From an uncultured bacterium (GTDB taxonomy: Bacteria > Patescibacteriota > Saccharimonadia > Saccharimonadales > Saccharimonadaceae): 8,494 nucleotides of DNA. The notes under the pieces were generated by a model. It did no database searches and was not told the DNA's origin. It saw only the letters and a list, made by a program, of their open reading frames with translations. Below are positions 944-8,494 of this stretch, piece by piece. The stretch's first letter is position 1. Every line of letters starts with the position of its first letter. The translations under genes and the position numbers were made by a program. The stretch lies in the NCBI GenBank assembly GCA_903861015.1, contig CAIOSL010000040.1, positions 1 to 8,494 of the forward strand. The letters run 5' to 3'.

Positions 944-2242
944 ATGAACGCTTTATCATCACAACCATACAAGGGAACGCGAGATTATTATCCAGCGGAC
1001 AAACGTGTCCAGAATTATATTTTCTCGGTGTGGCATAAAGTGTCGCGTAGTTTTGGTTATGAAGAATACGGTGCGCCAATACTAGAGCCGCTTGAAGTTT
1101 ATGCCGCTAAAAGTGGCCAAGAGCTGGTCAACGAGCAAACATATACTTTTACCGATCGGGGCGACCGAACGGTGGCGATTAGGCCCGAAATGACACCAAC
1201 CATCAGCCGAATGGTGGCCGCCAGGCGCCAAGAGTTGGCTTATCCGGCGCGATTGTACTCAATTGCAAACTTTATGCGCTACGAGCGTCCTCAGCGTGGC
1301 CGCGAGCGCGAGTTTTGGCAATTGAACGTTGATATGTTTGGGGCTGATACGATTGCGGCCGAGGCCGAGATAATTACTATCGCCGACGGTATTATGAAAG
1401 AGTTTGGCGCCAAACCGCAGGATTATGTGATTCGAATTAACAATCGCAAGCTGATTAACTTTGTCATGACCCAATATTTGCAGCTGAACGCGGACAAGGT
1501 TCAGCCAATGGTTAAATTGTTCGACCGCAAAGACAAGATTAGCCACCAGGAGTTTGTCGACCAGGCGAGCGAGATATTTGGTGACCAGGCTGCGGATGGC
1601 ATCGCTCGGATTGAAGCGTTGCTGGGCGCCAAGACAATTGAAGATTTGCCACAAGAGGTATTGGCGAGTGATGCTTTAGGCGAGATTAAACAGTTGTTTG
1701 ATTTGCTGGCACAAGCTGGCGTCAATAATATGACTTTTGATGTGACATTGATGCGCGGATTGGATTACTACACCGGCACGGTCTTTGAGGTTTATGACAC
1801 TCACCCCGACAACAATCGGTCGCTGTTTGGCGGCGGTCGTTACGATGGTTTGGTGGGCATGTTTGGCGTCGAGCCAATTTCGGCCGTTGGTATGGCGCCG
1901 GGCGGTACGATGCTAGAAAACTTTTTGGACGTACACGGTTTGCTGCTACAGTCCCGTTCGACCACTGACGTTTATGTGGCGATTGTTGGCGATACGATGC
2001 AGGCGGCCAATCAGGTAGCAAGTGATTTGCGTAAAAACGGTATTAATGCCGAAATGGACCTAGCGGGCGGCAAGGTGGACAAGCAGATCAAAACTGCTAT
2101 CAAAAAGGCAATTCCGTATGTTTTGTTTGTTGGTGAGGAAGAAGTCAAAACCGGGGTGTATACTATTAAAAACATTACTAAAGCGATTGAGTACAAGCGG
2201 GATTTTGCCGGTTTGATCGAATTAATTAAGGAGCAATTATGA
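944..2242 (+). CDS. hisS: Histidyl-tRNA synthetase
   Basis: A cytoplasmic class II aminoacyl-tRNA synthetase that attaches histidine to tRNA-His using ATP. At 432 residues it has the normal bacterial length. The N-terminal KGTRDYYP (10-17) is the family opening. Motif 1 is around RPEMTPTISRM (80-90). Motif 2 spans 110-133 with FMRYERPQRGRE. The histidine-binding signature RGLDYYTGTVFE (271-282) and GGGRYDGLVG (296-305) are intact. Motif 3 is odd: where most relatives have G-x-E-R-L, this protein reads VGMAPGGTML (315-324), so the conserved Glu and Arg are Thr322 and Met323. Residues from about 342 form the anticodon-binding domain. The start gives the expected N-terminus; no good Shine-Dalgarno is seen. 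The stop overlaps the tig start (ATGA), so the two genes are translationally coupled. Confidence 0.97.
   Translation: MNALSSQPYKGTRDYYPADKRVQNYIFSVWHKVSRSFGYEEYGAPILEPLEVYAAKSGQELVNEQTYTFTDRGDRTVAIRPEMTPTISRMVAARRQELAYPARLYSIANFMRYERPQRGREREFWQLNVDMFGADTIAAEAEIITIADGIMKEFGAKPQDYVIRINNRKLINFVMTQYLQLNADKVQPMVKLFDRKDKISHQEFVDQASEIFGDQAADGIARIEALLGAKTIEDLPQEVLASDALGEIKQLFDLLAQAGVNNMTFDVTLMRGLDYYTGTVFEVYDTHPDNNRSLFGGGRYDGLVGMFGVEPISAVGMAPGGTMLENFLDVHGLLLQSRSTTDVYVAIVGDTMQAANQVASDLRKNGINAEMDLAGGKVDKQIKTAIKKAIPYVLFVGEEEVKTGVYTIKNITKAIEYKRDFAGLIELIKEQL
2228..2233 (+). promoter_or_regulatory. Strong ribosome binding site for tig
   Basis: AAGGAG lies 5 nt before the tig ATG at 2239 and inside the last codons of hisS. 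It fixes the tig start and supports coupled translation through the ATGA overlap. It contrasts with hisS and clpP, which lack a comparable motif. Confidence 0.8.
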
Positions 2243-3525
2243 ATTCAACAATCAAGAATATTTCAGACACCAAAGTATTAATGACTATCACGGTGAGTGC
2301 CGAAGAGTTGGCGATTGCCGAACAAGTTGCGTTGACCAAATTGGCGCGTGACGTAAAGGTTGCTGGTTTTCGCAAGGGTAAAGTGCCGTTGGCGGTTGCC
2401 TCAAAAAATATTGACCCGATGGTTTTGCAAGAAGAATCGTTAAATAATGCTATCAGCAAAGCTGTGGCCGATGCCTTTTTGCATGACGAGGTTAGGGCAT
2501 TGGACCGACCAGAAGTCGAGATCAAAAAGTATGTTCCGGGCGAAACACTCGAGATTACGGCTGAGGTTGAGGTTATGCCAAAGGTTGAACTGGGTAATTA
2601 CAAAAAGCTAAAAGCTGAGGTTAAAAAAACTAGCGTTAGTGATGATGAAGTTAACGAAGTGATCGAACGTATGCGCCGCGGCTTGTCGGATCGACAGTCG
2701 GTTGATCGACCAGCCAAAGATGGCGACGAAACGATCATCGACTTTGTCGGCAAAAAAGACGGCGTGGCCTTTGAGGGTGGATCGGCAGCAGATTATCGCC
2801 TTGAACTGGGATCTAACCAGTTTATTCCTGGATTTGAAGCTGGTATCGTTGGGCACAAGATTGGCGAGGCGTTCGATATCGACCTAACCTTCCCAGATGA
2901 CTATATGTCGAGCGACCTAAAGGGCGCCAAGGTGGTCTTTACGGTTACCCTAAAAGACATCAAAGAAGTAGCTTTGCCAGAAGTGACCGATGAGTTTGCA
3001 GCCAAGGCAGGTCCGTTTACGACTGTTAAAGAATTGAAAGATGATGTCAAGTGCGAACTGACGACTCAAAAAGACAACGAAGAGATCGAGAAATTGAAGG
3101 AAGATCTAGTCAACCAGTTGGTTGCTGCCAGCAAGGTACCGACACCAGAAGTGTTGGTGGCTGATCAGGCAAAGTCGATCGAACAAGATTTTGAAAGTAA
3201 TTTGATGTACCAGGGTTTGACGGTTGATCAATATCTGCAAAACAAGGGTTTTGGATCGATCGAGAAGTGGCGCGAAACCGAGGTGCGTGATGCGGCCGTC
3301 AAGCGCGTTCAGGCGGCGTTGGTGCTGGGCGAACTCAGCAAAGTCGAAAAGATTGAGGCTAACGAAGCTGAGCTTGAAGCAAATTTGGAGCGTTACCGAC
3401 GTCAGTACGCCAAAAACCCAGATGCATTGAAGCGGTTTGAGCAGCCAGAGGTTCGTCGTGACGTTGCCAACCGTTTGTTGACCGAAAAAACTGTCGATCG
3501 CTTGGTCGAACTGAATAAAAAATAA
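2239..3525 (+). CDS. tig: Trigger factor, ribosome-associated chaperone and peptidyl-prolyl isomerase
   Basis: Binds the ribosome exit tunnel, shields nascent chains and speeds proline isomerisation in the cytoplasm. At 428 residues it is the usual length. The N-terminal ribosome-binding domain carries the signature loop GFRKGKVP (43-50). An FKBP-type isomerase domain follows at about 157-244, with the typical GSNQFIPGFEAGIVG stretch (191-205). The rest, from PEVTDEFA (247-254) onward, is the helical charged C-terminal chaperone domain, rich in Lys and Glu. The start is fixed by a strong Shine-Dalgarno and the 4-nt overlap with hisS. clpP follows after 12 nt; adjacency of trigger factor and ClpP is common in bacteria and links folding to degradation. 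No frameshift or missing domain is seen. Confidence 0.97.
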   Translation: MNSTIKNISDTKVLMTITVSAEELAIAEQVALTKLARDVKVAGFRKGKVPLAVASKNIDPMVLQEESLNNAISKAVADAFLHDEVRALDRPEVEIKKYVPGETLEITAEVEVMPKVELGNYKKLKAEVKKTSVSDDEVNEVIERMRRGLSDRQSVDRPAKDGDETIIDFVGKKDGVAFEGGSAADYRLELGSNQFIPGFEAGIVGHKIGEAFDIDLTFPDDYMSSDLKGAKVVFTVTLKDIKEVALPEVTDEFAAKAGPFTTVKELKDDVKCELTTQKDNEEIEKLKEDLVNQLVAASKVPTPEVLVADQAKSIEQDFESNLMYQGLTVDQYLQNKGFGSIEKWRETEVRDAAVKRVQAALVLGELSKVEKIEANEAELEANLERYRRQYAKNPDALKRFEQPEVRRDVANRLLTEKTVDRLVELNKK

Positions 3526-3531
3526 TACAAT
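3502..3531 (+). promoter_or_regulatory. Possible promoter giving a leaderless clpP transcript
   Basis: TTGGTC (3502-3507), an 18-nt spacer and TACAAT (3526-3531) resemble -35 and -10 boxes. The -10-like box ends 6 nt before the clpP ATG, so transcription would start at or near the start codon. This would fit the lack of a Shine-Dalgarno there. It overlaps the end of tig and could equally be chance in AT-rich sequence. Confidence 0.3.
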
Positions 3532-3537
3532 AGAGTT

Positions 3538-4134
3538 ATGACAAAGCCAAATAACTATTTAGTTCCAACAGTCATCGAAAAAACTTATGATGGCGAGCGT
3601 GCTTTTGATATTTACTCGCGACTGTTAAACGAACGGATTATCTTTTTGGGCGAGCAGGTTAATGAAAGTACGGCCAACGTTATCGTGGCGCAATTGCTGC
3701 ATTTGGCCTATGTTGATCCAAAAAAGGACATCAAGATATATATCAACAGCCCTGGCGGCAGTATTTATGACGGTATGGCGATTTATGACACCATGCAGTA
3801 CATTGCGCCAGATGTCCAAACAATTGGTATTGGTTTGCAGGCCAGCATGGGGGCGTTTTTGCTGTCGAGTGGCACCAAAGGCAAGCGATTTGCGTTGCCA
3901 CACAGCAAGATTATGATCCATCAACCCAGCAGCGGCACCCAAGGTCGGGTGACGGATATGGAGATTGATCTGAAGGAAAGTGTGGCGGTCAAAGAGATGA
4001 TGGCTGAACTATTGGCGCGAAACACCGGCCAAAAAATCGACAAGATAAAGACCGACATGGAACGCGACTATTGGATGACGCCAACCGAGGCCAAGGCCTA
4101 TGGTTTGATCGACGAAATTATTGCCAAAGCCTAG
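3538..4134 (+). CDS. clpP: ATP-dependent Clp protease proteolytic subunit
   Basis: Serine peptidase of family S14. It forms the barrel-shaped proteolytic core that degrades proteins fed in by ClpX- or ClpA/C-type unfoldases. At 198 residues it is full length. The catalytic triad is intact: Ser103 in [10 protein letters not shown] (nucleophile), His128 in IMIHQPSSG, and Asp177 in [30 protein letters not shown] (70-87) is the usual conserved strand-helix segment. The start gives a short N-terminus containing YLVPTVIE, typical of the axial loop region, and no long propeptide is present. No Shine-Dalgarno is seen. It lies 12 nt after tig and so may be cotranscribed with hisS-tig, read from its own promoter, or both. 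Confidence 0.98.
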
Positions 4135-4177
4135 ACTTTAACTTGCAAACGTGGTATAGATATACGCAAGTATAACT

Positions 4178-4807
4178 ATGTCGTACTATATCAATCATAT
4201 CAACCCGTCTGTCGGGTCTGTACAAGAGTTAATTGGTTTGCGTTACCGAAGTATGGTTTGTTCTGGGGTGCCCGAGCAAATTGCGTCCAAGGTGGCCGAC
4301 CCTAACAACGACACGCATATTGATCGTCAATATGATATGTTTCGATCAGATACGATACGTCATTTTGGTGCGTATTCCTTAAAGAATGATCGTTTGGTGG
4401 GCTATTTTAGGGCTGATGATTGGCATGCGACCGATCAACTGCCGTTTAGTCAGGGTTTGGTAGAGCATGCGGTGCTATCCGCCAGGGCAGGGCTTGCCGA
4501 CAATACACTGCCAGGTTTACCGCTGGGTGTTCATGAATTGTTGATTGATAACTGTGATGATGGCGCCGAAGAAGTGGCCAGTATGCTGCTTGACCGCATT
4601 ACACTCCTAGCCGATGCTCGTGAAATTTGTACGCCAACCCGCAATAACCAGGTAGTGTTGAGGGCTCTAGGCAACCATGGTTTCAAGTCGACATTTAGAC
4701 GAGCTGCTTTTCCGGATGGTTATAAATTACTTTGTCAACGGCCACCGTATATATTTACTTTGGCCGACTATATCGAATCAAAGCAAAGCCAGTACGAGTA
4801 TCGTTAA
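4178..4807 (+). CDS. Putative GNAT-fold acyltransferase-like protein, substrate unknown
   Basis: A 209-residue soluble protein with no signal peptide or membrane segment. I cannot name it. The pattern suggests the GCN5-related N-acetyltransferase fold: LRYRSM near the N-terminus (21-26), a strand pair ending LVGYFRADDW (73-82), a strand GVHELLIDN (117-125) followed by a helix EEVASMLLDRITLLAD (131-146), then TPTRNNQVVLRALGNHGFK (152-170), which resembles the closing GNAT segment before the last strand. The acetyl-CoA loop expected after the LLIDN strand is degenerate (CDDGAEEV), so catalysis is uncertain. The N-terminal half, with Arg22/Arg24, Asp49, Asp53 and Arg78, faintly recalls LuxI-type acyltransferases. 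There is no clear Shine-Dalgarno. The gene starts 43 nt after clpP and is followed by the long rpoB leader. Confidence 0.7.
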   Translation: MSYYINHINPSVGSVQELIGLRYRSMVCSGVPEQIASKVADPNNDTHIDRQYDMFRSDTIRHFGAYSLKNDRLVGYFRADDWHATDQLPFSQGLVEHAVLSARAGLADNTLPGLPLGVHELLIDNCDDGAEEVASMLLDRITLLADAREICTPTRNNQVVLRALGNHGFKSTFRRAAFPDGYKLLCQRPPYIFTLADYIESKQSQYEYR

Positions 4808-4815
4808 TTATAGTA

Positions 4816-4844
4816 TTGACTATTTTACGACACTAGTTCACAAT
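4816..4844 (+). promoter_or_regulatory. Possible rpoB promoter
   Basis: TTGACT (4816-4821), a 17-nt spacer and CACAAT (4839-4844) resemble sigma-70-type boxes. This would start transcription about 145 nt upstream of the rpoB ATG and give a long leader. It is the best match I see in the 188-nt gap; a TAGTAT at 4845-4850 is a less well spaced alternative. Confidence 0.3.
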
Positions 4845-4978
4845 TAGTATCAAGAAGTAGTGTAGCTGTGGTTAGGTGTATATCTATTGCGAGTGGCATC
4901 ACATTAGATTGAGACTACGGTTAAGGGAATCTTCGGCGCCAAGAAAACCCCTATTAACTAAATACAATTTAAACCCTC

Positions 4979-4984
4979 AAGGAG
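4979..4984 (+). promoter_or_regulatory. Ribosome binding site deciding the rpoB start
   Basis: AAGGAG lies 11 nt before the ATG at 4996. Spacing is slightly long, but the motif supports 4996 over an upstream ATG at 4876 that would add 40 unconserved, Arg-rich residues. An in-frame GTG at 4984 overlaps the motif itself and is unlikely. Confidence 0.6.
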
Positions 4985-4995
4985 TGGCATCAAGT

Positions 4996-7900
4996 ATGGC
5001 AAAAGCTAAACCTGACAGCGCTAAGCGTATTTTCTTTACCCAAGACGATACGGCGCTACCATTACCAAATCTAATTTCTCACCAACGAGATAGTTGGCGT
5101 GATTTCGTCGACACCGGACTTAGCGAAATTTTTGCGGAGTTAAACCCGATCGACGATTACACTGGTCAAAAGCTATCACTAAGGTTTACGGGCTATTCTT
5201 TCCAGGATCCAAAAACCAGCGAGAGCTATGCCAAAGAAAACAATTTGACTTTTGATGCACCTTTGCATGCAACGGTTGAGTTGACCAACAAGGTCACTGG
5301 TGAAGTTAAAGAACAAGAAATCTATTTGGGTGACTACCCTTGGATGACCGACCGCGGTACGTTTATTGTTAACGGTACCGAGCGTGTTGTTGTGTCGCAG
5401 CTGATTCGCAGCGCCGGCGTATTCTTTACAGCTGAACGATCGGCAACTCGTAATTTTTATGGTGCCAAGTTGATCCCAGGCCGTGGTGCATGGTTAGAGA
5501 TCGAAACCGCCGCAAATGGTACAATCTATGTCAAGATTGATCGCCGCCGTAAATTGCCAATTACGACGCTGCTGCGCGCCCTTGGTTACAGCAAAACATC
5601 CGAGATCAAGAGTTTGTTCGAGGATATTGATACTGGCGAAGTTAAGTATATTGATGCCACACTTGACAAAGACCCAGCTCGTGGTTCTAACGAGGCTTTG
5701 ATCGAGGTTTATCGCCGTTTGCGACCAGGTGATCTGGCCACTGTCGATAACGCTCGCAGCATGATCGAGCGCATGTTCTTTGACTTTAAGCGCTTTGATT
5801 ATAGCCGTGTTGGTCGTTACAAATTGAACCAACGTCTTGGTTTGGTAGTGCCTAACACAACCGAAAACCGCGTTTTCCAACTAGCCGACCTGATTGCGAT
5901 TATTCGCGAGATTATTCGTTTGAATAACACTCAGGACAAGGTTGACGATATCGATGCATTGTCAAACCGCCGCGTTAAATTGGTTGGCGAATTGGTTGCG
6001 CGTCAGTTCCGTGTTGGTATGTTGCGTATGCAACGTAACGCTATGGACCGCATGAGCCTAACTGATATCGAAAACGTAACACCTGGCCAGCTGATTAATG
6101 CTCGCCCAGTTGTTGCTGCAGTGCGCGAGTTCTTTGCCAGTTCACAGTTGTCACAGTTGATGGACGAAACCAACCCACTAGCCGAGTTGTCGCACAAACG
6201 ACGCCTAAGCTCAATGGGACCTGGTGGTCTATCGCGCGAACGTGCTGGCTTTGATGTTCGTGACGCCCACCCAACTCACTATGGCCGTTTGTGTGTCGTC
6301 GAGACTCCAGAAGGTGCAAACATCGGTTTGGTGCTTAACCTGGCGACATATGCCCGCGTTAACGAATATGGCTTTATTGAAACGCCGTACCTAAAAGTGG
6401 TTGATAATAAAGTAACCGATCAGGTTGTTTATCTGGATACCGCCCAAGAAGTTGTTGAAGTTATTGCTGACGCCAGCGTTAAATTGAACGACGACGGTTC
6501 GTTCGTTGATGAGCGCGTTAGTGCTCGTAATGGAGTCTTGCCAGAGCAAGTTGATGCCAAAGAAGTTACTTATGTCGACGCTGCTCACAAGCAGATCCTT
6601 GGTACTTCGGCTGCCTTGATTCCATTTATCGAGAAAAACCGTGTTGACCGCTCGCTAACTGGTTCGGCCATGCAGAAGCAGGCTGTGCCTTTGTTGCAAC
6701 CAGGTTCACCAATTGTTGGTACAGGTATTGAGGGCGAAATCGCCAAGAATACTAGCCAGTTGATTGTCGCAAGTGGCAACGGCGAAGTTGTTCGGGCTGA
6801 TGCCGATGAAGTTCACGTTAAATACGCTGACGGTGTACGCAAGTACGAGTTGGTTCACTTTGCCAAGAGCAACGATGACCGTTCGATTAACCAAAAAGTT
6901 TGTGTTGAACGTGGTCAAAAAGTTGAAACCGGCGACATCTTGATCGAAGGTGCTTCGATTGCTGACGGCGAATTGGCCTTGGGCCGCGACCTTTTGGTGG
7001 CTTTTATGCCATGGGGTGGTTACAACATGGACGATGCTATCGTGCTGTCAAGCCGAATTGTTCGTGACGACGCCCTAACCAGCATTAATATCAAGGATTA
7101 CACTGTTGAAGTTCGCGAAACCAAGCTTGGTAACGAAATTGTTACCCGCGATATTCCAAATGTCAGCGAAGAATCTTTGCGACATCTAGACGAGCACGGA
7201 ATTGTCGAAGTTGGGTCAGAGGTTAAATCTGGCGACGTACTTGTCGGCAAGATTACTCCAAAAGGCGAGCAAGAACTGTCAAGCGAAGAGCGATTGTTGC
7301 GCGCAATCTTTGGTGAAAAAGCCAAGGATGTTCGCGATACATCACTACGCATGAACAATGCTGGCGGCGGTAAAGTTGTTGGCGTCAAGATCTTTAGCCG
7401 CGAAAACGGCCACGAGCTTAAAGCTGGTGTCTTGATGCAAATCCAAATCTTTGTTGCTCAGCTACGCAAAATCAGCGTCGGTGACAAGTTGGCTGGACGC
7501 CACGGAAACAAGGGCGTTATTGCCAAGATTTTGCCAGTTGAAGATATGCCATTTATGGAAGACGGAACGCCAGTTGATGTGGTCTTGAACCCACTTGGTG
7601 TGCCATCACGTATGAACATCGGTCAGTTGTTTGAAACTCACCTTGGAATGGCTGCACGTGCCCTTGGTTACAAGGTTGCAACGCCTCCATTTAACGGCGT
7701 GCCAAACGAAGTTATTAGCGACGAGCTTGAAAAAGCCGGCTATGCTCGTGACGGTAAGTTCCAGTTGTTTGACGGTCGCGACGGCAATGCCTTTGAAGAG
7801 CGCACAACTGTTGGCGTCATGCATATGATCAAGTTGCACCACATGGTTAGCGACAAGATCCACGCTCGTTCAACCGGACCATACACAATGGTGACTCAAC

Positions 7901-8358
7901 AGCCACTAGGTGGTAAGGCTCAAAACGGTGGCCAGCGATTCGGCGAGATGGAGGTTTGGGCACTTGAAGCTTACGGTGCGGCCGCCACTTTGCAAGAAAT
8001 GCTAACCATCAAGTCAGATGACGTTTACGGACGTGCCAAGGCTTATGAATCGATCATCAAAAACGAACCGATTGTCGGACCAAAATTGCCTGAATCATTC
8101 AACGTCTTGGTCAAAGAGCTCCAAGGTTTGGGTCTGCGCGTTGATTTGCTAGACGAATCATCGGATGCCATTGTTGATGCCGAACAGATCATTCGCGGTA
8201 CGGTTATTGACGAAGTAGAAGTAAAGGAGTATGTATTAGAGCAGGGCCTGGAGGAAATGACATTTAAGAAACGAAAGGCTATGTCTTCTCTTGCAATTAG
8301 ATATGTCGATGGACAGGGGGCACGTAGGATAGTTGATAAGCTTTTGAAATTGTCATGA
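4996..8358 (+). CDS. rpoB: RNA polymerase beta subunit; last ~45 codons appear foreign
   Basis: The beta subunit of DNA-dependent RNA polymerase forms one side of the active-site cleft. From ATG 4996 the frame encodes 1120 residues, of which about 1-1070 look like genuine RpoB. The protrusion and lobe regions are present. The rifampicin-pocket segment is at 381-407 (ASSQLSQLMDET through HKRRLSSM), with Ser405 and His400 matching E. coli Ser531 and His526, while Leu388 and Met407 replace Phe514 and Leu533. The catalytic-cleft motif GDKLAGRHGNKG (829-840) and the C-terminal GGQRFGEMEVWALEAYGAA are intact. Conserved RpoB sequence ends near ELQGLGLRVDLLDE (1041-1054). From about 1072 the frame changes in codon style and resembles a sugar-nucleotide hydrolase tail. 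The native stop and rpoC are missing. A 188-nt leader, not rplJL, lies upstream. Confidence 0.95.
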   Translation: MAKAKPDSAKRIFFTQDDTALPLPNLISHQRDSWRDFVDTGLSEIFAELNPIDDYTGQKLSLRFTGYSFQDPKTSESYAKENNLTFDAPLHATVELTNKVTGEVKEQEIYLGDYPWMTDRGTFIVNGTERVVVSQLIRSAGVFFTAERSATRNFYGAKLIPGRGAWLEIETAANGTIYVKIDRRRKLPITTLLRALGYSKTSEIKSLFEDIDTGEVKYIDATLDKDPARGSNEALIEVYRRLRPGDLATVDNARSMIERMFFDFKRFDYSRVGRYKLNQRLGLVVPNTTENRVFQLADLIAIIREIIRLNNTQDKVDDIDALSNRRVKLVGELVARQFRVGMLRMQRNAMDRMSLTDIENVTPGQLINARPVVAAVREFFASSQLSQLMDETNPLAELSHKRRLSSMGPGGLSRERAGFDVRDAHPTHYGRLCVVETPEGANIGLVLNLATYARVNEYGFIETPYLKVVDNKVTDQVVYLDTAQEVVEVIADASVKLNDDGSFVDERVSARNGVLPEQVDAKEVTYVDAAHKQILGTSAALIPFIEKNRVDRSLTGSAMQKQAVPLLQPGSPIVGTGIEGEIAKNTSQLIVASGNGEVVRADADEVHVKYADGVRKYELVHFAKSNDDRSINQKVCVERGQKVETGDILIEGASIADGELALGRDLLVAFMPWGGYNMDDAIVLSSRIVRDDALTSINIKDYTVEVRETKLGNEIVTRDIPNVSEESLRHLDEHGIVEVGSEVKSGDVLVGKITPKGEQELSSEERLLRAIFGEKAKDVRDTSLRMNNAGGGKVVGVKIFSRENGHELKAGVLMQIQIFVAQLRKISVGDKLAGRHGNKGVIAKILPVEDMPFMEDGTPVDVVLNPLGVPSRMNIGQLFETHLGMAARALGYKVATPPFNGVPNEVISDELEKAGYARDGKFQLFDGRDGNAFEERTTVGVMHMIKLHHMVSDKIHARSTGPYTMVTQQPLGGKAQNGGQRFGEMEVWALEAYGAAATLQEMLTIKSDDVYGRAKAYESIIKNEPIVGPKLPESFNVLVKELQGLGLRVDLLDESSDAIVDAEQIIRGTVIDEVEVKEYVLEQGLEEMTFKKRKAMSSLAIRYVDGQGARRIVDKLLKLS
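8205..8235. other. Likely chimeric junction inside the rpoB frame
   Basis: Upstream codons favour GTT, GAA and CGT/CGC. Downstream, AGA, AGG, ATA, GGG and TTA appear together in a short stretch, and the protein no longer resembles RpoB. The change falls around 8205-8235; the exact base cannot be fixed from one sequence. I infer an assembly join, although a genuine rearrangement would look the same here. Confidence 0.6.
8221..8358 (+). pseudogene. C-terminal fragment resembling a PseG/SpsG-type hydrolase
   Basis: The last roughly 45 codons of the fused frame end with RYVDGQGARRIVDKLLKL after FKKRKAMSSLAI. A helix with K/R-x-M followed by V-D-G-x-G-A-x-R-I-V is, from memory, how many PseG/SpsG-family proteins end. 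These UDP-sugar hydrolases belong to pseudaminic-acid or spore-coat polysaccharide synthesis. The rest of that protein, including its catalytic domain, is absent. The identification is by pattern only. The following frame fits the usual pseG-pseH gene order, which strengthens the call. Confidence 0.45.
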
Positions 8359-8422
8359 GTAGAGCGAAATGGAGAATAAACCCTGACTTTTTTCTCTGAA
8401 AAGCAGGCGTTAGTATTATAAG

Positions 8423-8494
8423 ATGAAGAATCCAGCGAAAAATTTCCATATAAATGAATTTATTCTTGTTAACTTCGTAAATCTTAATGATGAA
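8423..8494 (+). CDS. 5' end of a possible PseH-like N-acetyltransferase (partial)
   Basis: An ATG at 8423 opens a frame that runs off the window after 24 residues; the upstream in-frame stop is at 8411. The segment FILVNFVNLNDE resembles the N-terminal strand of PseH-type GNAT enzymes, which acetylate a UDP-amino sugar in pseudaminic-acid synthesis and usually continue into a W-R-N motif beyond this point. No clear Shine-Dalgarno is present. The gap of 64 nt from the preceding stop holds only a 14-codon frame (8355-8399) that I do not consider a gene. With so few residues the call leans on the PseG-like neighbour. Confidence 0.4.
   Translation, partial: MKNPAKNFHINEFILVNFVNLNDE

Follow-up and report, generated by a model that had tools for sequence, protein, structure and literature searches.

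The right end of the contig that we analysed is most likely a mis-join made during assembly, where about 265–280 bases carrying the apparent end of one pseudaminic-acid gene (pseG) and the probable start of another (pseH) stand in place of rpoC. The window, 8,494 bases in length, is an entire contig (C40) of a genome (G000) that comprises 728,040 bases in 97 contigs, with a completeness of 94.5% and a contamination of 3.0%. The named RpoB relatives are Saccharibacteria. The RpoB–PseG fusion encoded at the right end is likely to be an artefact rather than a real feature, a case of a short stretch of foreign sequence attached to a fairly complete genome. We read the contig as a chimera because the tail of its rpoB frame looks like the last part of a sugar-pathway gene, and searches of the sampled relatives found no such gene. 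The original prediction of a chimeric contig is supported by this PseG-like tail, by its absence from the RpoBs of relatives, by the adjacency of rpoB and rpoC in every relative locus read, and by the location of rpoC on a different contig of the same genome.

The rpoB frame and the end of its native sequence

The plus strand of C40 carries, in this order, hisS, tig, clpP, a frame of 209 residues, and rpoB. From rpoB to the end of the contig, the sequence can be divided as follows:

4996..8214, plus strand: genuine rpoB, without only the last acidic residues (Pfam Rpb2 domains, NCBIfam RpoB, identity to same-genus genomes)
8215..8229, plus strand: join zone, which may still belong to the native acidic tail as its end (VEVKE) or may be foreign already (compared with AEQIIRGAIIDEEPEVEVEEIKEEA of the RpoB relative P0002, and with AAGGAGGAGGCGTAATATG, the rpoB end of many same-genus relatives)
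8230..8358, plus strand: foreign, pseG-like C-terminal end with its own stop, read in the rpoB frame (PseG profile in a six-frame scan; shuffles)
8359..8422, plus strand: foreign, spacer between two pse-like genes (GC 31% over 8359–8494)
8423..8494, plus strand: foreign, 24 codons that probably begin a pseH-like gene, truncated where the contig stops (pairwise comparison with the PseH of locus L041)

As originally described, rpoB runs in frame into the tail: the frame is open from a GTG at 4876 to a stop ending at 8358 (1,160 residues), and comprises 1,120 residues when counted from the ATG at 4996. The protein body contains the Rpb2 domains 1, 2, 3, 45, 6, and 7 (Pfam) and is a member of the RpoB family. 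Its identity to the proteins of same-genus genomes is 89–94% over the matched part of a query consisting of the 452 C-terminal residues. The NCBIfam model PRK00405 stops, as does the final Rpb2 domain of Pfam, at residues 1054–1055 of the 1,122 given, which corresponds to about 8151–8154. The claim that conserved RpoB sequence ends near 8160 therefore holds for family-wide conservation, which ceases at about 8150, but similarity at the level of the genus reaches 8214.

The position of the break was narrowed by comparison with relatives. P0002, the best-scoring RpoB relative, can be aligned through VIDE (8214) and perhaps through VEVKE (8229); it ends in AEQIIRGAIIDEEPEVEVEEIKEEA, and the window has AEQIIRGTVIDEVEVKEYVLEQG at the corresponding place. 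The 452-residue query found a match in 33 of 40 genomes, G000 counted. In the 20 same-genus genomes that were fetched, the matches end at query residues 357–423, with 15 of the 20 ending at 404–417 (about 8211–8250 of the window) and two extending to residue 423 (about 8268) via an acidic stretch. RpoBs of relatives that share the tail of the window were also looked for, by searching 5.8 billion proteins with a query of residues 1045–1122. None of four words from the tail occurs in any of the 53 RpoBs scored among the 255 candidates; these proteins have acidic ends instead. Given this result and the similarity to P0002 as far as 8214 or 8229, the break lies in 8215–8229, inside the interval 8205–8235 that had been proposed for the junction. 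The longest exact match of 8200–8235 to the 20 same-genus loci is 13 bases long (GACGAAGTAGAAG, in L020), so a native origin is possible for some of the join zone; sharing with a donor is not addressed by this match.

A change in codon choice had been claimed for the same place. A shift in composition is seen in total GC, which drops from 48.4% in rpoB to 35.5% over 8216–8494; none of the 6,993 overlapping windows of 279 bases in 944–8215 is as low, in a comparison that omitted the AT-rich left end of C40 (1–500, 35% GC). It is not seen at third codon positions, where GC failed to discriminate between the tail and rpoB (93 of 1,030 rpoB windows are equally low), and the coding part of the tail (8216–8358) has a GC content of 39.9%.

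Other parts of C40 have peculiarities of their own. The 209-residue frame (4178–4807) in the interval between clpP and rpoB has no match in Pfam or NCBIfam (E 0.001). Positions 1–109 are identical to positions 10249–10357 of contig C11 (minus strand), 29 bases short of the C11 end, and contain a hairpin, AGACAGGGC-TAAC-GCCCTGTCT. Past the shared 109 bases the two contigs diverge, C11 entering a short stretch rich in GC and C40 one rich in AT. The left end of C40 may thus represent a repeat, or else another questionable joint. Positions 110–830 are low in GC (about 35%) and include a frame of 91 residues (493–768) that matches no Pfam family. This left part of C40 has no DNA match in 39 relatives (E 0.001), whose matches begin only at about 834. 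The window as a whole has no match at Rfam gathering scores.

The tail and its resemblance to pseudaminic-acid genes

The tail had been likened to the C-terminus of a sugar-nucleotide hydrolase, and our profile searches bear this out. The enzyme concerned is PseG (TIGR03590), the UDP-2,4-diacetamido-2,4,6-trideoxy-beta-L-altropyranose hydrolase of the pseudaminic-acid pathway. When the window was scanned in six frames with a PseG profile of our own, the approximately 40 residues past the RpoB end matched with an E value of 6.1e-5 (domain, 1.1e-4); the second-best match had an E value of 0.73. The tail alone scored 23.4 bits against the profile, compared with 5.6 bits for the best scored shuffle (1,595 scored of 2,000 made). 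By this profile match, the tail scores as the C-terminus of a PseG.

When the tail residues were searched alone, using a 48-residue query against genome contigs, three distant relatives were found, and in each the match closes a protein or domain that is PseG-like. In an Actinomycetota MAG (L041) and a Bacteroidetes MAG (L042) it sits at the C-terminus of the protein, and in an Ignavibacteriales MAG (L043) it ends the PseG part of a fusion of PseG and an acetyltransferase. The three proteins match TIGR03590 with E values of 1e-35 to 2e-43, their scores of 123.5–149.3 bits being below the curated cut-off of 153.55. Since L041–L043 were retrieved via the pattern DGQGARRI, their possession of it is not independent evidence, and it is for this reason that we used a less circular test, the profile described above. 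This profile was made from 70 homologues, each with at most 58% identity to the L041 protein. The starting pool was the best 120 of 1,143 homologues, from which we dropped 12 of at least 400 residues and then, among the remaining 108, the 38 closest to L041. A profile built from all 108 gave an E value of 3e-5. Near the C-terminal end, DGxGAxR is present in 37 of these 108 homologues (from the best 120 of 1,143), so the motif is common, not universal.

TIGR03590 itself, which covers the N-terminal and catalytic part, has no match on the tail. The tail corresponds to the region past the match of this model in the L041 protein (residues 1–246 of 320). It shares with PseG the C-terminal VDGQGARRI stretch and the short end that follows; unlike a PseG, it comprises only about 40 residues and is fused to RpoB.

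After the spacer, the residues KNFHINEFILVNFVNLNDE of the window can be aligned with KNITVGDQILKNFINLNDK from the L041 PseH, which adjoins PseG, with a score of 55. None of 5,000 shuffles reached 55, but the best of them scored 49, a narrow margin for a single pairwise comparison. The 24-residue start matches no NCBIfam model (PseH is TIGR03585). The genes for PseG, PseH, and PseI are consecutive in L041. Judged by these resemblances, the foreign piece would most simply be the end of one pse gene followed by the start of the next, and its sharing of the rpoB frame would most simply be a one-in-three coincidence.

An unusual but native C-terminus of RpoB in this species, resembling PseG by chance, is extremely improbable. 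RpoB tails in the genus do differ in length and sequence, but the score against the PseG profile is well above those of the shuffles, the tail is not of the usual acidic kind, none of the 53 scored relatives has it, and a PseH-like start comes next.

G000 contains no second copy of the tail, and PseG (TIGR03590) was not found elsewhere in this genome. With a threshold of E 1e-10, PseG was absent from all 294 sampled genomes of the order (G000 included), in a search that was positive in 3 of 14 control genomes. PseI was likewise absent from the 151 sampled genomes of the family (G000 included) at E 0.001. Weak PseG matches at E 0.001 were obtained in 12 of 40 genomes, none of them over the cut-off; the one of the 12 that was examined (L044) was rejected as a native PseG, as it matched best as MurG, itself below the MurG cut-off. 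Two source lineages appear to lie on either side of one point in C40. Left of the join, the contig falls within one genus of Saccharibacteria; right of the join, its sequence is carried by none of the other 293 genomes sampled from the order, apart from matches of 21–31 bases in five of them (E 0.001–0.009 per genome). These short matches were rejected as a native source, about three being expected by chance at E 0.01. A donor gene was sought with the tail by a region and word search of 5.8 billion proteins, which returned two candidates and no match, and the donor was not found among viral contigs or plasmids.

The rpoB–rpoC joint in relatives and in the same genome

We read 29 relative loci, 20 from the same genus and nine from the same order; three other matching genomes were not fetched. 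The original prediction had suggested looking at the rpoB–rpoC junction in related genomes, and rpoC follows rpoB in 29 of 29 loci (the RpoC start was found by a motif script in 27, and by a second motif in L012 and L021). The RpoBs of these loci have variable, mostly acidic tails, with the rpoC start at the rpoB stop or a few bases off, and in 19 of the 29 the end of rpoB carries AAGGAGG. The window does not have the acidic C-terminal tail directly before rpoC that is typical of the genus. Within the genus (L012–L031), the acidic tail varies much in length and sequence among species, that of L031 being partly masked; the last rpoB bases stay much alike, often reading AAGGAGGAGGCGTAA, with the likely ribosome-binding site of rpoC. 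L029, from genome G019, has about 107 extra bases separating the rpoB stop from rpoC, unlike its relatives.

The statement that rpoC is absent is correct for C40, but the gene has not been lost. It is split off onto contig C64 of G000, where it lies on the minus strand and reaches the contig end (15251). Comparison with relatives places this last base at the second position of codon 4 of rpoC. The same operon joint is thus where C40 and C64 both break off, with the pse piece attached to one of these two ends. The DNA identities of the C40 rpoB to the 29 relatives parallel those of the C64 rpoC (r = 0.94), and L013 is the closest relative for both. Thus, on sequence comparison the two genes fit one genome, which falls short of proof. 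If AAGGAG at 8224–8229 is the native start of AAGGAGGAGGCGTAATATG, the relatives suggest that about 20 bases would be missing between C40 and C64. The right end of C40 and the end of C64 show no overlap with other G000 contigs beyond the chance size of 14–27 bases, so the assembly fork itself is not seen.

Real recombination had been considered possible but less likely. It would have placed a piece of a pseudaminic-acid locus at the rpoB–rpoC joint, splitting the operon and leaving RpoB with a sugar-enzyme tail. We judge this to be very unlikely. The frame stays open until it reaches a proper stop, the variability of the RpoB tail in the genus means that this end may tolerate change, and the extra bases in G019 indicate that the joint is not untouchable. 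However, the piece, as far as it is seen, consists of two broken genes (the end of pseG and the start of pseH), neither PseG nor PseI was found in G000 or the sampled lineage, the C64 rpoC looks native up to the contig end, and all 29 relative loci keep rpoB and rpoC together.

Origin of the join and comparison with known systems

In the assembly mis-join that we favour, the assembler would have crossed from the Glu-rich rpoB end into the foreign gene by way of a short stretch, shared or similar, around GAAGTAGAAGTAAAGGAG. The true continuation of C40 into C64 would then be missing from the assembly, and the fused protein of 1,120 residues would be absent from the cell. The probable origin of the pse piece is a different organism in the same sample.

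The join could also have been made in vitro, by template switching or by ligation while the DNA was amplified or the library prepared, and not by the assembler. All of the evidence for a chimera applies equally to such an event, and no sequence common to rpoB and the donor could be demonstrated at the join. With the donor gene not found, an in vitro origin agrees with the data nearly as well as a mis-join does. We nevertheless consider it unlikely, as chimeric molecules usually make up a minority of the reads. The assembler mis-join is put first because the authors of GUNC expect the principal errors in MAGs to be mainly computational (PMC8201837). They also describe misassemblies as relatively rare compared with mis-binning, which counts against a mis-join (PMC8201837). 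For Illumina reads, one benchmark study gives 22.15 chimeric contigs per genome for megahit and 2.63 for SPAdes (PMC11261854).

Protein databases and marker-gene trees could take up the false 1,120-residue RpoB, and Saccharibacteria might wrongly be credited with a pseudaminic-acid gene. Trimming C40 at about 8214 would remedy the record.

Compared with the rpoBC operon of Saccharibacteria, the RpoB body of the window is like that of its relatives. The spacing of about 6 kb between rpoB and the sequence that precedes hisS is kept in four of them (G016, G006, G007, and G021), as judged by the positions of the matches alone. What C40 lacks of this operon is the native acidic end of RpoB, the ribosome-binding site of rpoC, and the rpoC start. 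Among the titles listed for Saccharibacteria, rpoB, and chimeras, none concerns the case of C40. The closest parallel is the chimeric contig as characterised by the authors of GUNC (PMC8201837): fragments of two sources are combined in one contig, here at its end, and a change of protein family coincides with a loss of gene order at one point. Unlike in such chimeras, the foreign part of C40 comprises only about 265–280 bases, less than one whole gene, so tools that count genes would probably not flag this contig.
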